The notes under the pieces are model-generated. The model was not told the origin of the DNA, did no database searches, and worked only from the letters and a program-made list of their open reading frames with translations. DNA of 35,285 nt, taken from positions 1-35,285 of the forward strand of contig JAPLFP010000324.1 of NCBI GenBank assembly GCA_026390585.1, written 5' to 3'. The position numbers and the translations under genes were made by a program. This document shows, in pieces, positions 24,655-31,762 of the stretch. Numbering within the stretch: the stretch's first letter is position 1; each line of letters opens with the position of its first letter. This DNA is from Ignavibacteriales bacterium (GTDB lineage Bacteria > Bacteroidota > Ignavibacteria > UBA10030).

Positions 24655-27600
24655 TCAAGCTCGAATGAGTTTCAGCTGTGTCGCCATCCGTGCATCAATC
24701 TCAATGGTCGTTGGTGTTTCAGCGCTCGTCGAGAGAGACTGATCCGAGTAAAGGGCAAAATGAGCTTTGCCATCATCCGTTGGGAATGAACCATTCACAC
24801 GATGAGCGACTCCATCCGCATGAAGAAGTGACTGAAACTCCGACACAAGTTCGTCGAATGACCCGCCGATCGGCGAATTGCCCATCAACCCCGCCAGCCT
24901 CTTGATGATCTCCACCGTTTGAATCCCGTTTGCAGCATCTCCGATGGCGTGAGTCCTTTGTTGGAGTCCGAACCAGTTGGTGAAGTGCCCATCTGTTTCC
25001 ATGAACGCCGAAAGTGGCAAGAAAACGTCGGCAGCCTGAGCAGTTTCCGTCAGGAACAAGTCCGCAACAACAAGAAACTCCAGGTTGTTGACAAACTGAT
25101 GGTACTCCGGTGCCACGGAGGGATTCTCGCCGAAAATGACCGCCGCCCGGATCTTATCCTCGCGTATCTTTCGGCTGATATTCGTGCCGGATGTCTCAAA
25201 GAGTTTCTTCAGATCAGTGTTCCAGAGTTTTCCAGCGCTGTCCGCGCGGTGGGAATTTGAAATCGGCACTCCTCCGGGGAGGAGACGATTATCAAATCCT
25301 GCCAGACGCATCCCCTCGTTGTTGCACTGATTGGTCATCAAGGCAATGCCTGAGCCGTCAACACCAATCTTGCCGAGACAGAGCATTAATGTTGTTAACG
25401 CCCGAAGGTCGTTGGCTGCCCTGTCGATGCGGCTTTCGAGATTGTAATAGGCGACGATCTTCTTCGACGGATCGGCCAAGAGTTCCACCATTTTCCGTAT
25501 GGCATCGACAGCCACGCCGGTCACAGCAGAAACCTCTGTCAGTTCGTTTTTGGCGAGGCTTGCAAGGACCTGGTCGGCATTGACTGTACGTTCTGCAACA
25601 AACTGCTTGTTGATCTTATTCTGACGGATGAGTTCAGCGATCACACCATTCAACAATGTTGTTGCGGTGCCGCGGCGAGAATCTGCCCAAACAGTCGCGT
25701 ACGGTGCCATGTCAATCTCGCCGGAATTGATGACGATAGCTTTCGTCCCCTTCTTCATATTCCTCTTCATCTGCCATCCGAGCACCGGGTTCTCAGAGGT
25801 CGGATTCCCACCGAGGATGATGAGCAGGTCGGCGGAATCAAGTTCGTTTGCACCGACGGTCGAGGCTGTCGTTCCAATCATCGAATCCACGGCGTGATAG
25901 TCCGCTTCGTTGACCATCCGGTAGAATGACGCAATGTTATTCGTTTTGATGGCAGAACGTGCATATTTGCCTGCGAGGTACAGCTCTTCGTTCGTCAGCT
26001 TTGGTGATGCGGCGACGAGGATGTGGTCAGGGCTGTGGTCCTCGATGACCTTCGCAAGCCCTTTTTGCACGGCTGCAAACGCTTCCTCCCATGAAGCGTC
26101 TCTCAGGCGTCCATCTCTGCGGACCATCGGGCGGGTCCACCGAGTGCCGTCAAGGTGATGTTCATACCCGAAACGACCCTTGACGCAGAGTTCTCCGCGA
26201 TTCGGACCAAGATCAGGTGGCGCTCCGGTAACGTAGAAGAGGTCCGGAGTTTTCACCATGAAGGTGATATTGCAGCCCACCGAGCAGTAATTGCAGACGT
26301 TATAGACAGGATCCATCTTCCAGGGGCCGGAACGTCGGAACGGCATTTTCTCGACGAGAGCACCCGTCGGACAAACGTCGATACAGTTGCCGCAGGAAAC
26401 ACAGTTCGTTTCGTGTAACGGCTTTTCCATCGCCGGTTTCACGATGGTGCGGAATCCGCGGTTGACAAATCCCAGTGCCGAAACATTCAGAATCTCGGCG
26501 CAGGTGTTCACGCATCGTCCGCAGCGTATGCACTTATTTAAATCGATTTTCACAAATGGATGACGCGTATCGACTTTGTATCGATTGAAAGCGCCTTTGA
26601 ATCGTTTCTGGTCAACTCCATATTCCGTGCAATAATCCTGAAGTGCGCAGGCGAGTCCGACATCGCATCCGCATTCTGCGCAACGCAGAGCTTCAATTCT
26701 TGCTGCCTCATCACCGTAGGCGTGTTCGACTTCATTGAAACCGAGTATACGCTCTAAGACAGGTACCTCATCGGGCTGATTTCGTTTGATTGGCTCAAGA
26801 GGCGGAATGTCCTGTGGAGCGAGCTTGTGGAAATTGTCTCTCTTGCTTTCAAAGCGGGGAGTCAACGGCTCAACGATACCTGTCTGGATGTACTTGTCAA
26901 TGGCCAGGGCTGCCTTGCGTCCGGCAGCAATAGCATCGATAGCATCGGCTGGTCCTGTCACAACGTCTCCGCCTGCGAAGACGCCCGGCCGTGCGGTGTC
27001 AAATGTGCCTGATTTCGCTTCGATCGTTTTCCATTTCGATACTTTGATCTTGCCGTCGCCTTCAACACCGCCGAGATCCGCCTCCTGACCGATGGCTGAG
27101 ATCACCCAATCGCACGTCAATGAGTATTCAGATCCTTTTTGAGGTACGGGTCGACGTCGCCCGCTTGAGTCGGGTTCACCAAGTTCCATCTTGATGCATT
27201 CGATGGAACTCATGCGCCCGTTCTCGATATTCACTCGGACAGGGGCGGCTAGAAACTGCATTTCGATCCCTTCGTGCTCAGCCGCTTCAATCTCGATGTG
27301 GTTCGCCGGCATCTCATTTCGCGATCGCCGATACAGTAGAATTACTTTATCTGCTCCAAGTCGCAGAGACGTACGCGCCGCATCAATAGCAGTGTTTCCT
27401 CCTCCGACGACCACCACCCGACCTTTCACGGGAGGGTTGGTCTTCATCTCAACTTGCTTAAGGAACTCAACGCCGCTGAGGACACCTTCTGCCTCTTCAT
27501 TTTCGACCTGCATGGGCTTTCCAACCTGTGCTCCCAATCCCACAAAAACAGCTTTGAATCCCTGGTTGAACAAGTCGTCGATCGAAAAGTCTTTCCCAAG

Positions 27601-28389
27601 CGTCCGGTTTGCGTGAATATCCACACCGAGGTCTGTGATCCACTTGACTTCCTTGTCGAGCACTTCCTTCGGCAGACGATATTCGGGAATACCGTATCGC
27701 AGCATGCCGCCCATTGCCGGCAAGGCTTCGAAAATTGTCGGTTGGTACCCCTCAACGACGAGATAGTACGCGCATGTCAGCCCTGCTGGTCCACCACCGA
27801 TAATTGCGATGCGATTACCGTTTACAGGCTTTACCTCCGGCTGCCACATTTCGCCGATCATGTCCTGGTCGGCGGCGTACCGTTTCAGGAAATCGATGCC
27901 GACGGGTTCGTCGATCATCGAACGCCGACAGTTCAGTTCACACTTGCGCGTACACACACGTCCGCAGACTGACGGTAGGGGATTTTTCTCCTTGATGAGA
28001 GCAATTGCTTCCTTGAATTTCCCGAGCTGAATGAGGGACATGTATCCCTGTATATCAACGTCGGCGGGGCAATTCAAGCGGCAGGGTCCGAAGCAGTCTG
28101 CATAGTGATCAGAAAGCAGGAGTTCGAGACATGTTTTCCGAGCCCGCTTGACCTTCTCCGAGCGGGTATGAATTTTCATTCCCTCACCGACCTTGGAGGA
28201 GCAGGCGGGAAACAATCTGCTTTGACCTTCAACTTCGACGACACAAAGGAAGCAGGAACCGAAAGGATGGAGCTTCTCATCGTAACAGAGTGTTGGGATG
28301 GTGTCGATCTTCAGGTCCTTGCAGACCTGAAGAATGGTTTTGTCGGGTGATGCAGTGACCTGTTGCCCGTTGACCGTCAGGGTGACCAT
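24655..28389 (-). CDS. Fused ferredoxin / GltD-like / formate-dehydrogenase-like oxidoreductase
   Basis: 1244-aa multidomain redox protein. In order: a NuoG/HydA-type [2Fe-2S] ferredoxin (Cys35, 46, 49, 63); a GltD/NfnB-like region with N-terminal Cys clusters (99-107, 142-154), FAD site IIGGGPAG (196-203), NAD(P) site VVGGGNTAID (327-336) and LYRRSRNEMPA, whose paired Arg suggest NADPH; two [4Fe-4S] ferredoxin motifs (620-630, 663-673); then a molybdopterin-oxidoreductase domain with its own [4Fe-4S] cluster (Cys699, 702, 706, 735). Aligned by eye to E. coli FdhF, the catalytic Sec/Cys position is Val (about 826), the neighbouring His is Asn, and the D-P-R-R-T motif is missing, so formate oxidation is unlikely. 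It resembles a fusion of Geobacter SfrB- and SfrA-like parts. ATG at 28389 has GAGGAA upstream, 8 nt after the NuoF-like stop. Confidence 0.88.
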   Translation of the reverse strand: MVTLTVNGQQVTASPDKTILQVCKDLKIDTIPTLCYDEKLHPFGSCFLCVVEVEGQSRLFPACSSKVGEGMKIHTRSEKVKRARKTCLELLLSDHYADCFGPCRLNCPADVDIQGYMSLIQLGKFKEAIALIKEKNPLPSVCGRVCTRKCELNCRRSMIDEPVGIDFLKRYAADQDMIGEMWQPEVKPVNGNRIAIIGGGPAGLTCAYYLVVEGYQPTIFEALPAMGGMLRYGIPEYRLPKEVLDKEVKWITDLGVDIHANRTLGKDFSIDDLFNQGFKAVFVGLGAQVGKPMQVENEEAEGVLSGVEFLKQVEMKTNPPVKGRVVVVGGGNTAIDAARTSLRLGADKVILLYRRSRNEMPANHIEIEAAEHEGIEMQFLAAPVRVNIENGRMSSIECIKMELGEPDSSGRRRPVPQKGSEYSLTCDWVISAIGQEADLGGVEGDGKIKVSKWKTIEAKSGTFDTARPGVFAGGDVVTGPADAIDAIAAGRKAALAIDKYIQTGIVEPLTPRFESKRDNFHKLAPQDIPPLEPIKRNQPDEVPVLERILGFNEVEHAYGDEAARIEALRCAECGCDVGLACALQDYCTEYGVDQKRFKGAFNRYKVDTRHPFVKIDLNKCIRCGRCVNTCAEILNVSALGFVNRGFRTIVKPAMEKPLHETNCVSCGNCIDVCPTGALVEKMPFRRSGPWKMDPVYNVCNYCSVGCNITFMVKTPDLFYVTGAPPDLGPNRGELCVKGRFGYEHHLDGTRWTRPMVRRDGRLRDASWEEAFAAVQKGLAKVIEDHSPDHILVAASPKLTNEELYLAGKYARSAIKTNNIASFYRMVNEADYHAVDSMIGTTASTVGANELDSADLLIILGGNPTSENPVLGWQMKRNMKKGTKAIVINSGEIDMAPYATVWADSRRGTATTLLNGVIAELIRQNKINKQFVAERTVNADQVLASLAKNELTEVSAVTGVAVDAIRKMVELLADPSKKIVAYYNLESRIDRAANDLRALTTLMLCLGKIGVDGSGIALMTNQCNNEGMRLAGFDNRLLPGGVPISNSHRADSAGKLWNTDLKKLFETSGTNISRKIREDKIRAAVIFGENPSVAPEYHQFVNNLEFLVVADLFLTETAQAADVFLPLSAFMETDGHFTNWFGLQQRTHAIGDAANGIQTVEIIKRLAGLMGNSPIGGSFDELVSEFQSLLHADGVAHRVNGSFPTDDGKAHFALYSDQSLSTSAETPTTIEIDARMATQLKLIRA

Positions 28390-28397
28390 TGCGTTCC

Positions 28398-30155
28398 TCA
28401 ATCTTTTGTTACGGCATCAAACCGACATACCGTGAAACATTTGCCGCATTTCGTACACTTGTCCTGATCAATGACATGGATTTCGCGTTTCTTCCCGGTG
28501 ATAGCAACCACTGGGCAGGCGCGGGCGCAGACCATGCACCCGGGGCACTTGTCATTGATCGTGAATGTCAGGAGTGCTGCGCAGACATGAGCGGAACATT
28601 TCTTTTGTTCGATATGTGTCACGTACTCATCGCGGAAGTACTTGAGCGTTGTCACCACCGGATTCGGAGCGCTGGTGCCGAGTCCGCAGAGGGATGCTGC
28701 TTTGATCTGCTCGCTGAGTTCTGTCAGGTTCTCGAGATCCGCCATTGTTCCTTCGCCCATCGTGATGCGCTCGAGGATTTCCAGCATCCGTTTCGTACCG
28801 ATGCGACAGAACGTGCATTTCCCGCACGATTCCGCCTGCGTGAAGGTTAGGAAGTACTTCGCGACGTCCACCATGCAGGTGGTTTCGTCCATCGCGATCA
28901 AACCGCCGGATCCCATGATGGCGCCTGTCTTTGGAATCTGCTGGTAGTCGATCGATGTATCGCTCATCGTCGCTGGTATGCATCCACCTGACGGGCCGCC
29001 CATCTGAACTGCTTTGAATTCCTTATCATTGACGATTCCGCCACAGACATCGAAGATGAGCGATTTGATGGAGATGCCCATGGGGACTTCGACAAGCCCG
29101 GTGCGCTTGACCTTGCCGGCCATCGCAAACACTTTGGTCCCTTTGCTGTCGGCCGTTCCGTAGGCCGCGAACGCAGCGCCGCCATGGTTGATGATCCATG
29201 GGACGTTCGCGAAGGTCTCAACATTGTTGATGTTTGTCGGTTTTCCCCAGAGTCCGGAATTAGCAGGGAAGGGAGGGCGGATCCGAGGCATGCCGCGTCG
29301 TCCCTCGATGGAGGCCATCAGAGCGGTCTCCTCGCCGCAAACGAATGCTCCAGCACCCTCCTTCACGGTGAGGTCAAAGTTGAATCCTGAACCAAGGATG
29401 TTCAGTCCAAGGAACCCTTTCTTTCGTGCCTGGCCAATCGCTTGCCGCAAACGGGTGACGGCTTTTGGATACTCAGCACGGCAGTAGATGTAGCCTTGAT
29501 CAGCGCCAATCGCAAAGCCGGCAATGATCATTCCCTCGAGAACAGCATGAGGGTCGCTTTCGAGGACGGACCTGTCCATGAATGCTCCCGGGTCCCCTTC
29601 ATCCGCGTTGCAAACGATATATTTCTTTGTCCCGGCCGCGGCGCGTGTCAATTTCCACTTTGTTCCCGTAGGGAATCCTGCTCCTCCGCGACCTCGCAAG
29701 CCGGAAGTGATAATCTCGTTTACGACGACGTCTGGAGTCATCTCGGTCAGGACCTTCTTCAGCGCCACGTATCCTTCGTGCTCGATATATTCTTCAATGG
29801 AACCGGGGTCGATTTTGCCGCAGTTTCGCAGCACGATCCGGACCTGATTTTCAAAGAAACCGACTTCTTTGTTTTCACCGGAAACCAGCCATTCGTCGAT
29901 GGGCTGATTGTTCATGACGTCCTGTTCGACGATCTTCCCAACGCGGTCCGGAGTGACGTCACCATAAAGACGAGCCGTATCATTGCCATTGGAGATCTCA
30001 ACGAGAACTTCTCGATAACACATTCCGATGCAGCCGGTTTCCTTCAGAAGGAATGCATCGGGGCGTTCTTTGAGCTCGTCCTGGAATGCTCTGTAGACTT
30101 TCTCTCCGCCTGCAGAGATGCCACACGTTCCTAATCCTACCGATACCGTTTTCAT
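28398..30155 (-). CDS. NuoF/HydB-like NADH-binding flavoprotein with C-terminal ferredoxin domain
   Basis: 585-aa subunit. Residues 1-90 are a thioredoxin-like domain with only three Cys (TCGISAGG, TGCIGMC) where four are usual. Next comes the NuoF core: GLRGRGGAGFPTGTKW (153-168) and CNADEGDPGAF for FMN and NADH, GAFVCGEETALMASIEGRRG, a SLBB region, and the N3-type [4Fe-4S] site ESCGKCTFC plus the later Cys490. The C-terminus (about 515-585) adds HIEQKKCSAHVC and two [4Fe-4S] motifs (CPGCMVCARACP, CTKCGKCFTVC). That extension is the mark of HydB-type subunits of electron-bifurcating complexes and is absent from complex I NuoF. ATG at 30155 is preferred over TTG at 30158; GAGG lies upstream and the gap to the NuoE-like gene is 7 nt. 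Confidence 0.92.
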   Translation of the reverse strand: MKTVSVGLGTCGISAGGEKVYRAFQDELKERPDAFLLKETGCIGMCYREVLVEISNGNDTARLYGDVTPDRVGKIVEQDVMNNQPIDEWLVSGENKEVGFFENQVRIVLRNCGKIDPGSIEEYIEHEGYVALKKVLTEMTPDVVVNEIITSGLRGRGGAGFPTGTKWKLTRAAAGTKKYIVCNADEGDPGAFMDRSVLESDPHAVLEGMIIAGFAIGADQGYIYCRAEYPKAVTRLRQAIGQARKKGFLGLNILGSGFNFDLTVKEGAGAFVCGEETALMASIEGRRGMPRIRPPFPANSGLWGKPTNINNVETFANVPWIINHGGAAFAAYGTADSKGTKVFAMAGKVKRTGLVEVPMGISIKSLIFDVCGGIVNDKEFKAVQMGGPSGGCIPATMSDTSIDYQQIPKTGAIMGSGGLIAMDETTCMVDVAKYFLTFTQAESCGKCTFCRIGTKRMLEILERITMGEGTMADLENLTELSEQIKAASLCGLGTSAPNPVVTTLKYFRDEYVTHIEQKKCSAHVCAALLTFTINDKCPGCMVCARACPVVAITGKKREIHVIDQDKCTKCGKCFTVCRFDAVTKD

Positions 30156-30162
30156 CAAGGCC

Positions 30163-30669
30163 TCATTCTTCGGTTGCTTTTGAGACAGAGCCTACACGGC
30201 GTTTCTCTTCCCGAACGACCTTCCGGACTTTGTTCGATTCCAGTCGACCGTGCGTTTGGCCATTGACGGTCATGACCGGAGCGAGCGAGCAGCATCCAAG
30301 ACAGGCAACCGATAGCAAACTGAAATTTCCGTCATCCGTGGTTTCGTCGTATGTGATCTGCAGCTCATCCTGAACGATATCGTACACGCCTGTTGCTCCG
30401 TTCACGTGGCAGGCTGTACCGTTGCAGATCTTAATGATGTTCTTTCCAAGCGGTTTGGTGCGGAACTGCGCGTAGAATGTGACGACGCCGTAGATCTCCG
30501 CAGCAGGAATGCCGGTCACATGGCTGATGTGATCGATGACCTTCTCTGAAACGTAGCCATACGTATTTTGCGCTGATTGCAGCAGAGGAATGAGGGCGCC
30601 GGCGTGACCGTCATACTTCCACAGGTCAACGTTGAAGGGCTTGAATTCATCCGTGAGTTGTTCTGCCAT
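30163..30669 (-). CDS. NuoE/HydC-like [2Fe-2S] subunit
   Basis: 168-aa thioredoxin-like [2Fe-2S] protein of the 24-kDa complex I subunit family. A four-helix N-terminal part (LIPLLQSAQNTYGYVSEKVI, then GIPAAEIYGVVTFYAQFRT) precedes the cluster domain with CNGTAC and CLGCC, giving the C-x4-C and C-x3-C pairs. In HydABC, Nuo and related enzymes it pairs with the NuoF/HydB subunit and hosts a side cluster near FMN. It lies 9 nt after the RAM-like gene and 7 nt before the NuoF-like gene. The last 25 residues are charged and probably disordered. Confidence 0.93.
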   Translation of the reverse strand: MAEQLTDEFKPFNVDLWKYDGHAGALIPLLQSAQNTYGYVSEKVIDHISHVTGIPAAEIYGVVTFYAQFRTKPLGKNIIKICNGTACHVNGATGVYDIVQDELQITYDETTDDGNFSLLSVACLGCCSLAPVMTVNGQTHGRLESNKVRKVVREEKRRVGSVSKATEE

Positions 30670-30678
30670 GATCGGGAC

Positions 30679-31170
30679 TCAGATTTGTTTCAGATTGATG
30701 ACGCGGTCTTGCTTCACACGGAGAACGCCATCGATTGGTCGAATCTGGTTGTTGACCATGCGATCGATGGATTGAAAGTTGTCGCCGCTGATGACGGCAA
30801 CGAGTTCATTGCGGTCTTGCATCCGCGAACAGAAAATGACCTGCGCCAACGCTTTGATTCTGGATTGGACGTCCGCCAGTTTGTCAGCTTCCACCTCAAG
30901 AAACAGAAAAGAATGGGAAAGGGCGAGCTCGCACACAAGCTTTGCGCCGTCGTCGGTGAGATCGAACACATACAATTCATCGATACCGGGGAGATTGCGA
31001 AATTGCGCGGGCAGCGCTGACGCCGGGGTTTTGATCAATGCCACGAGGTCAACATGGCCGTCGACAGCATTCCAGCAATCGACGAATTCCGAGTGCTCGA
31101 ACACTTCAGCGGTAGGGATAAGTCGCTCAGGATCAGAGAGACGAGCAAGAAGAAGAGCTCCGCTGCTCAT
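30679..31170 (-). CDS. Protein with two RAM/AsnC-like ligand-binding units
   Basis: 163-aa protein without a DNA-binding helix-turn-helix. The ATG at 31170 is used (AAAGGAAAC upstream); the frame upstream of it overlaps the ferredoxin gene and looks non-coding. Two segments align by eye: 28-70 (CWNAVDGHVDLVALI, then LPGIDELYVFDL) and 108-160 (CSRMQDRNELVAVI, then IRPIDGVLRVKQ). Both show the strand-helix-strand pattern with D-LVA-I and a Gly/Asp-rich turn seen in the RAM (AsnC/Lrp C-terminal) domain, which binds amino acids and forms dimers. A small-molecule sensor or assembly factor for the redox complex is a guess. Its fixed place between ferredoxin and NuoE suggests functional linkage. Confidence 0.6.
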   Translation of the reverse strand: MSSGALLLARLSDPERLIPTAEVFEHSEFVDCWNAVDGHVDLVALIKTPASALPAQFRNLPGIDELYVFDLTDDGAKLVCELALSHSFLFLEVEADKLADVQSRIKALAQVIFCSRMQDRNELVAVISGDNFQSIDRMVNNQIRPIDGVLRVKQDRVINLKQI

Positions 31171-31262: not shown

Positions 31263-31502
31263 CTACAGAAGCTCTCCGTCGTCTCTGATGCAATTCATCG
31301 GACAAATATCCATAGCCCGACGGACGTCATCTTCCTCCCGCGCGTCGGCAGGTTGCTGATAGACGTAATAATAGGAGGAGTCGTTGCTATACATAAAATT
31401 CTGCAAAGCATAGGAGAAGCAAATGCCACATCCATTGCACGCGCTCGTCACATAGTACCTGCCTATGATATTTTCCTGAAGCCTGACTGAGACTGAGGAC
31501 AT
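31263..31502 (-). CDS. Small [4Fe-4S] ferredoxin
   Basis: 79-aa acidic protein. Cys22-x2-Cys25-x2-Cys28 and Cys67-Pro make a single [4Fe-4S] site, with Cys71 as an extra cysteine (DICPMNC). The long 38-residue spacer between the Cys triplet and the last Cys fits single-cluster ferredoxins in which the second cluster site was lost. It is the first gene of the redox operon, behind GGGAGA and the sigma-54-type promoter about 60 nt upstream, and is likely the dedicated electron carrier of the encoded complex and perhaps of the FNR-like enzyme. The 92-nt gap to the next gene holds no clear feature. Confidence 0.88.
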   Translation of the reverse strand: MSSVSVRLQENIIGRYYVTSACNGCGICFSYALQNFMYSNDSSYYYVYQQPADAREEDDVRRAMDICPMNCIRDDGELL

Positions 31503-31539: not shown

Positions 31540-31569
31540 TGGCACAATAACTTGGCAAGGATTGTGCCA
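31540..31569. promoter_or_regulatory. Perfect 9-bp inverted repeat overlapping the sigma-54 promoter
   Basis: TGGCACAAT (31540-31548) and ATTGTGCCA (31561-31569) are exact reverse complements with a 12-nt spacer. One arm is the -24 element; the other falls across the predicted start site. It could be a repressor or IHF-like operator, a 5' RNA hairpin, or a by-product of the promoter motif. Confidence 0.5.
31555..31569 (-). promoter_or_regulatory. Sigma-54 (-24/-12) promoter of the redox operon
   Basis: On the minus strand the sequence reads TGGCAC-AATCC-TTGC, matching the RpoN consensus TGGCAC-N5-TTGC in every conserved position, including the GG and GC pairs at the right 12-nt distance. It lies about 53 nt upstream of the ferredoxin ATG, giving a leader of roughly 40 nt. 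It implies control by an enhancer-binding activator that responds to some metabolic signal. The same stretch is half of a perfect inverted repeat (31540-31569). Confidence 0.78.
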
Positions 31570-31683
31570 CGGAAAAGGGGCGTACACGGATGGATTTTGC
31601 AAATCTCTTGGCTCCCAATCGGGCAAAAAGGGGGTATGTTCTCATTCCTGACAACGATGTTCCAGAATATGAAAGCATTAGGG

Positions 31684-31702
31684 TTGTTGAGGAATTCAAC
31701 AA
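31684..31702. promoter_or_regulatory. Candidate enhancer site (7-bp inverted repeat)
   Basis: TTGTTGA-ggaat-TCAACAA is a perfect 7-bp inverted repeat about 140-160 nt upstream of the predicted sigma-54 start, a normal distance for an enhancer-binding activator. A shorter dyad GATTT-TGC-AAATC lies at 31593-31605. Both are suggestive only. Confidence 0.25.
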
Positions 31703-31736
31703 AAACGCCGGTCTCCCTTTTGCAGGAGGACCGGCG
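31701..31736 (-). terminator. Rho-independent terminator of the OAT/cPGS-like/Cys-Met operon
   Basis: Minus-strand stem CGCCGGTC / GACCGGCG (31729-31736 with 31706-31713), extended by partial pairing, followed by TTTTTG. It begins 27 nt after the stop of the PLP enzyme gene and insulates that operon from the sigma-54 promoter region. Confidence 0.9.
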
Positions 31737-31762
31737 CGCAGAACGGTGTCGGTGGGGCGGAG

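Follow-up and report, generated by a model that had tools for sequence, protein, structure and literature searches.

Upstream regulatory elements of a ferredoxin operon

The 35,285-nt stretch of Ignavibacteriales DNA analysed here (the window) carries, on its minus strand, a ferredoxin gene followed by genes for a predicted multisubunit redox enzyme. The region upstream of the ferredoxin gene contains a sequence resembling a sigma-54 (-24/-12) promoter and two inverted repeats, and a first-pass annotation had assigned a regulatory role to all three. The question raised by this locus is which sequence elements are likely to control the operon.

TGGCAC-N5-TTGC has a single exact match in the window, TGGCACAATCCTTGC, which is located at 31569–31555 on the minus strand, with the -24 box TGGCAC at 31569–31564 and the -12 box TTGC at 31558–31555; the element claimed by the first-pass annotation therefore exists. 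The ferredoxin ATG (31502) lies 52 nt downstream, and transcription from the predicted start at about 31543 would give a leader of roughly 42 nt in which AGGGAGA is the Shine–Dalgarno sequence. Allowing up to two mismatches, the window contains 37 matches compared with 34.8 expected, and in the whole 4.7 Mb genome TGGCAY-N5-TTGC occurs 27 times compared with 23 occurrences of the reversed control pattern. Most of these genomic sites are intragenic and a few others are intergenic. By itself, the core motif occurs at chance frequency across the genome.

What distinguishes the promoter from chance is its conservation among orthologues and not the rarity of the motif. We compared the regions upstream of the ferredoxin gene in the 14 genomes of the family that carry a close orthologue. 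They represent several genera and include all six congeners, and the relatives with names are assemblies of uncultured Ignavibacteria or Bacteroidetes. The pattern [CT]GGCA[CT]-N5-TTG[CTA] is found 54–76 nt upstream of the start codon in all 14 orthologues, compared with 0.037 expected from dinucleotide-preserving shuffles of the same 120-nt upstream regions. The two outcomes that the first-pass annotation had named as contradicting sigma-54 control, loss of the motif from orthologous upstream regions and absence of rpoN, are both excluded, as the genome also contains one intact rpoN gene (E = 3e-54). Together, the rpoN gene and the conserved motif strongly support sigma-54 control of the redox operon, and on this comparative evidence the TGGCAC-N5-TTGC element almost certainly functions as a sigma-54 promoter. 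The promoter is absent from the more distant ferredoxin orthologues L035/L064, L062, and L065, which sit behind other genes, indicating that the arrangement characterizes this family. In the more distant relative L065, inspection by eye showed butyrate kinase-like and phosphate butyryltransferase-like genes after the ferredoxin gene.

Inverted repeats around the promoter

The promoter overlaps a perfect 9-bp inverted repeat, TGGCACAAT-N12-ATTGTGCCA (31540–31569, minus strand), with arms at 31569–31561 and 31548–31540 that cover the -24 box and the predicted start. A 7-bp dyad, TTGTTGA-N5-TCAACAA, is located further upstream (31684–31702, minus strand). Following the first-pass annotation, one may read the 9-bp dyad as the target of a regulator and the 7-bp dyad as the enhancer site. 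This proposal has some support, in that both dyads exist, the 9-bp dyad is intact in three of the six congeners, and L023/L025 have one paired substitution in the 7-bp dyad, from TTGTTGA/TCAACAA to GTGTTGA/TCAACAC.

The pattern of conservation among the relatives nevertheless argues against it. In the 9-bp repeat, the left arm consists of the -24 box and adjacent bases and is invariant across the genus, whereas the right arm drifts: three of the six congeners have an altered version (ATTATGCCA in L024, ATGATGCCA in L026, and ATTGTACCA in L027) that the left arm does not compensate, and the right arm is missing in the family genomes outside the genus. The spacer between the arms is conserved at least as well as the right arm, which indicates that the congeners preserve the core promoter and the start region rather than the dyad. 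Three congeners carry the 7-bp dyad without a mismatch and a fourth with one; the remaining two (L026 and L027) have lost it but retain the promoter. This dyad adjoins an intrinsic terminator predicted for the Cys/Met PLP-enzyme gene upstream (31698–31740, minus strand; GCGCCGGTC...GACCGGCG followed by TTTTTG). The terminator, formed by 31736–31706 and a U tract, is also an inverted repeat, and its RNA folds at -23.6 kcal/mol (z = -3.7). Dyads of both sizes are frequent in the window, where searches for perfect repeats with spacers of 3–20 bp yielded 11 raw matches (about five places) for 9-bp arms and 72 raw matches for 7-bp arms. Both dyads are thus real features of the sequence, but the regulatory roles proposed for them find no support, given the uncompensated and genus-limited second arm in one case and the inconsistent conservation and proximity to a terminator in the other. 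We consider it improbable that the two dyads serve as the regulatory sites.

Still less probable is that the 9-bp repeat functions as an RNA hairpin, either an attenuator or a leader element. The repeat folds at -13.2 kcal/mol (z = -2.6), as such an element might, but the pairing of the arms is not kept in the congeners, and a sigma-54 start near 31543 would leave the left arm out of the RNA, which speaks against a hairpin.

A pair of conserved upstream boxes

Alignment of the upstream regions from the genus and the family revealed a second conserved block, TTTCATATTCTGGAA-N6-TGTCAGGAATGAGAA (31639–31674, minus strand), located between the 9-bp and the 7-bp dyads. It consists of two boxes, at 31674–31660 and 31653–31639, each approximating the imperfect palindrome TTCCA-N5-TGGAA (TTYCA-N5-TGGAA-like). 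The boxes are 21 bp apart, a distance of two helical turns. Judging from its conservation, this pair of boxes is likely an activator site that the first-pass annotation overlooked, namely the upstream activating sequence of an enhancer-binding protein (bEBP).

When the six congeneric genomes were searched with the genus consensus, allowing up to three mismatches, the top match in each genome was the site before this ferredoxin gene, and all matches elsewhere had two or three mismatches; the consensus was derived from the same six genomes, and the other genera provide a fairer test. The centre of the box pair is located at -112 to -115 relative to the predicted start in 12 of the 14 genomes, six of them outside the genus. 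In L033 the centre is at -103, and in L032, where the fitted consensus took a shifted match, the pair was found by eye 21 bp further upstream, at about -96. None of 1000 shuffles scored as high as the actual boxes in nine genomes (three outside the genus), and between 5 and 49 of 1000 did so in four others; the boxes are weak in L034, L036, L029, and L033. The stretch between the boxes and the -24 element is conserved in length and not in sequence. The constant distance from boxes to promoter is best explained by a requirement for the activator to face the polymerase.

The least likely alternative, that the -24/-12 element is a chance match and transcription comes from a housekeeping promoter, accords with the chance density of the motif in the genome but is contradicted by its presence in 14 of 14 orthologues against 0.037 expected, by the phased upstream boxes, and by a scan for sigma-70-type promoters that gave only one weak site, on the opposite strand.

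The upstream Cys/Met PLP-enzyme gene has a TGGCACACCTCTTGC or TGGCACAGAACTTGA motif of its own 67–86 nt before the start codon in three relatives, L056, L060, and L057, and its upstream region contains no strong copy of the ferredoxin activator boxes.

Genes of the operon

The genes of the operon are all on the minus strand. The first gene of the operon (31263–31502) encodes a ferredoxin of the single 4Fe-4S type (Pfam Fer4_13, E = 2e-14). It is followed by a gene for a stand-alone AsnC/Lrp ligand-binding-domain protein (30679–31170; Pfam AsnC_trans_reg, E = 2e-6) without a recognised DNA-binding part. This gene lies between the ferredoxin gene and the genes of a Stn-like complex, and among the congeners it is present only in those with Stn. 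The remaining genes encode a StnA-like (NuoE/HydC-like) subunit (30163–30669; Pfam 2Fe-2S_thioredx, E = 7e-49; NuoE), a StnB-like (HydB/NuoF-like) subunit with a C-terminal 4Fe-4S domain (28398–30158; PDB 9bov_B, E = 4e-256; Stn complex 8oh5_B, E = 3e-253), and a StnC-like subunit combining a 2Fe-2S domain, a GltD-like NADPH domain, and a NuoG/formate-dehydrogenase-like domain (24655–28401; PDB 9bov_A, E = 2e-249; 8oh5_C, E = 8e-231).

In the StnABC complex as described, StnA contains a thioredoxin-like [2Fe-2S] domain, StnB resembles HydB, and StnC is a GltD-NuoG-FdhF fusion (PMC10482914). The proteins in the window have the same Stn-type make-up, with a NuoE-like protein, a HydB/NuoF-like protein with a C-terminal Fe-S domain, and a fusion of GltD with NuoG/FdhF. 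They share the three-subunit composition and domain order of the StnABC transhydrogenase of Sporomusa ovata (PMC10482914, PMC7483475), and 9bov and 8oh5 are the top PDB matches. Unlike the Sporomusa ovata genes, the set in the window is part of a ferredoxin operon with a sigma-54 promoter and an additional AsnC-domain gene, and it belongs to an Ignavibacteria-related bacterium. The operon encodes a ferredoxin, an AsnC-type domain protein, and a Stn-like transhydrogenase with predicted electron-bifurcating activity. Gene order and spacing suggest that these genes are co-transcribed.

In the StnC-like protein, the segment corresponding to the active-site region of formate dehydrogenases (FYRMVNEADYHAVD) shows, on inspection by eye, neither Cys nor selenocysteine, and the protein is therefore probably not a formate dehydrogenase.

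Exchange of the downstream transhydrogenase

The genes that follow the ferredoxin gene differ among relatives. Within the genus, this position is taken by the AsnC-domain gene and the Stn genes in G000, G002, and G003, and by NfnA and a GltD-like NfnB in G001, G004, and G005. In other genera, the ferredoxin gene is followed by NfnAB in G007, G011, G022, and G024; in G008, G010, G021, and G027, the search found no transhydrogenase immediately behind it. NfnA was not found anywhere in the window's genome, G002, or G003 at a threshold of E = 1e-50. NfnAB (PMC6405883) occupies in relatives the position after the ferredoxin gene behind the same promoter, although its architecture is unlike that of Stn and it is absent from the window's genome. 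Nfn copies unlinked to ferredoxin mostly lack both the promoter and the activator boxes, which indicates that the promoter goes with the ferredoxin gene. As judged by homology, two unrelated bifurcating transhydrogenases are placed behind one promoter, and the ferredoxin gene and the promoter form the stable unit.

Proposed mechanism

Sigma-54 (RpoN) promoters with upstream activating sequences for bEBPs include targets of NtrC, NifA, and FhlA. The present locus resembles these systems in the -24/-12 spacing, in the paired boxes roughly 100–130 bp upstream, and in the presence of rpoN and bEBPs in the genome. It differs in that the TTYCA-N5-TGGAA box was matched to no named bEBP and in that the target is a ferredoxin with a bifurcating transhydrogenase.

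Considering the promoter, the activator boxes at a fixed spacing, and the downstream enzyme exchange brought out by the genome comparisons, we find it very probable that a sigma-54-dependent promoter and a bEBP acting at the two boxes drive the ferredoxin/transhydrogenase operon. RNA polymerase with sigma-54 would bind the -24/-12 element at 31569–31555 and start near 31543. A bEBP bound to the boxes at 31674–31639, about 113 bp upstream, would reach the polymerase by DNA looping, and its ATP hydrolysis would drive formation of the open complex. The products would be the ferredoxin, the AsnC-domain protein, and the Stn-like transhydrogenase, or, in the relatives, the ferredoxin and NfnAB. Ferredoxin would thereby increase in step with the cell's capacity for NADH/NADPH/ferredoxin exchange. 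The nature of the enzymes makes a redox or fermentation cue a plausible signal.

Electron-bifurcating transhydrogenases set the ferredoxin/NADH/NADPH balance in anaerobes. A sigma-54 promoter with phased sites that is kept through the swap of two unrelated enzyme types points to ferredoxin as the constant partner. We speculate, with somewhat less than even confidence, that a dedicated bEBP reads pairs of TTCCA-N5-TGGAA sites at about one operon per genome and couples the ferredoxin supply to whichever of Nfn or Stn the lineage possesses, constituting an undescribed sigma-54 redox-balance switch. Among the open-licence papers listed in our searches, none describes Nfn or Stn as being under sigma-54 control, and the regulation described in a review is by Rex, not sigma-54 (PMC6405883).

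Candidate activators

The activator boxes offer a precisely located sequence with which the activator, and the signal it responds to, can be sought. Enhancer-binding proteins, which the first-pass annotation had suggested looking for, are well represented: the sigma-54 activator domain has 20 matches in the genome, about 14 of them strong, and eight of the bEBP proteins that were read contain a G[AS]FTGA loop (GAFTGA or GSFTGA). To look for the cognate bEBP, we compared how the candidates L002, L012, L006, L007, L003, and L008 are distributed among 32 genomes of the family, and the role could be assigned to none of them. L002 and L012 are excluded because orthologues of theirs are lacking in congeners with both operon and boxes, and L006 and L007 fit poorly, being missing from some promoter-bearing genomes. 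L003 (NtrX-like) and L008 are nearly universal in the family, a distribution that is consistent with the role but uninformative. No bEBP gene is consistently adjacent to the operon in the other genomes. One intergenic TGGCACGTTCCTTGC (L091, G000:C361:14420-14434) is flanked by L008, which is a bEBP gene, and by a small reading frame with a Fis-like HTH.
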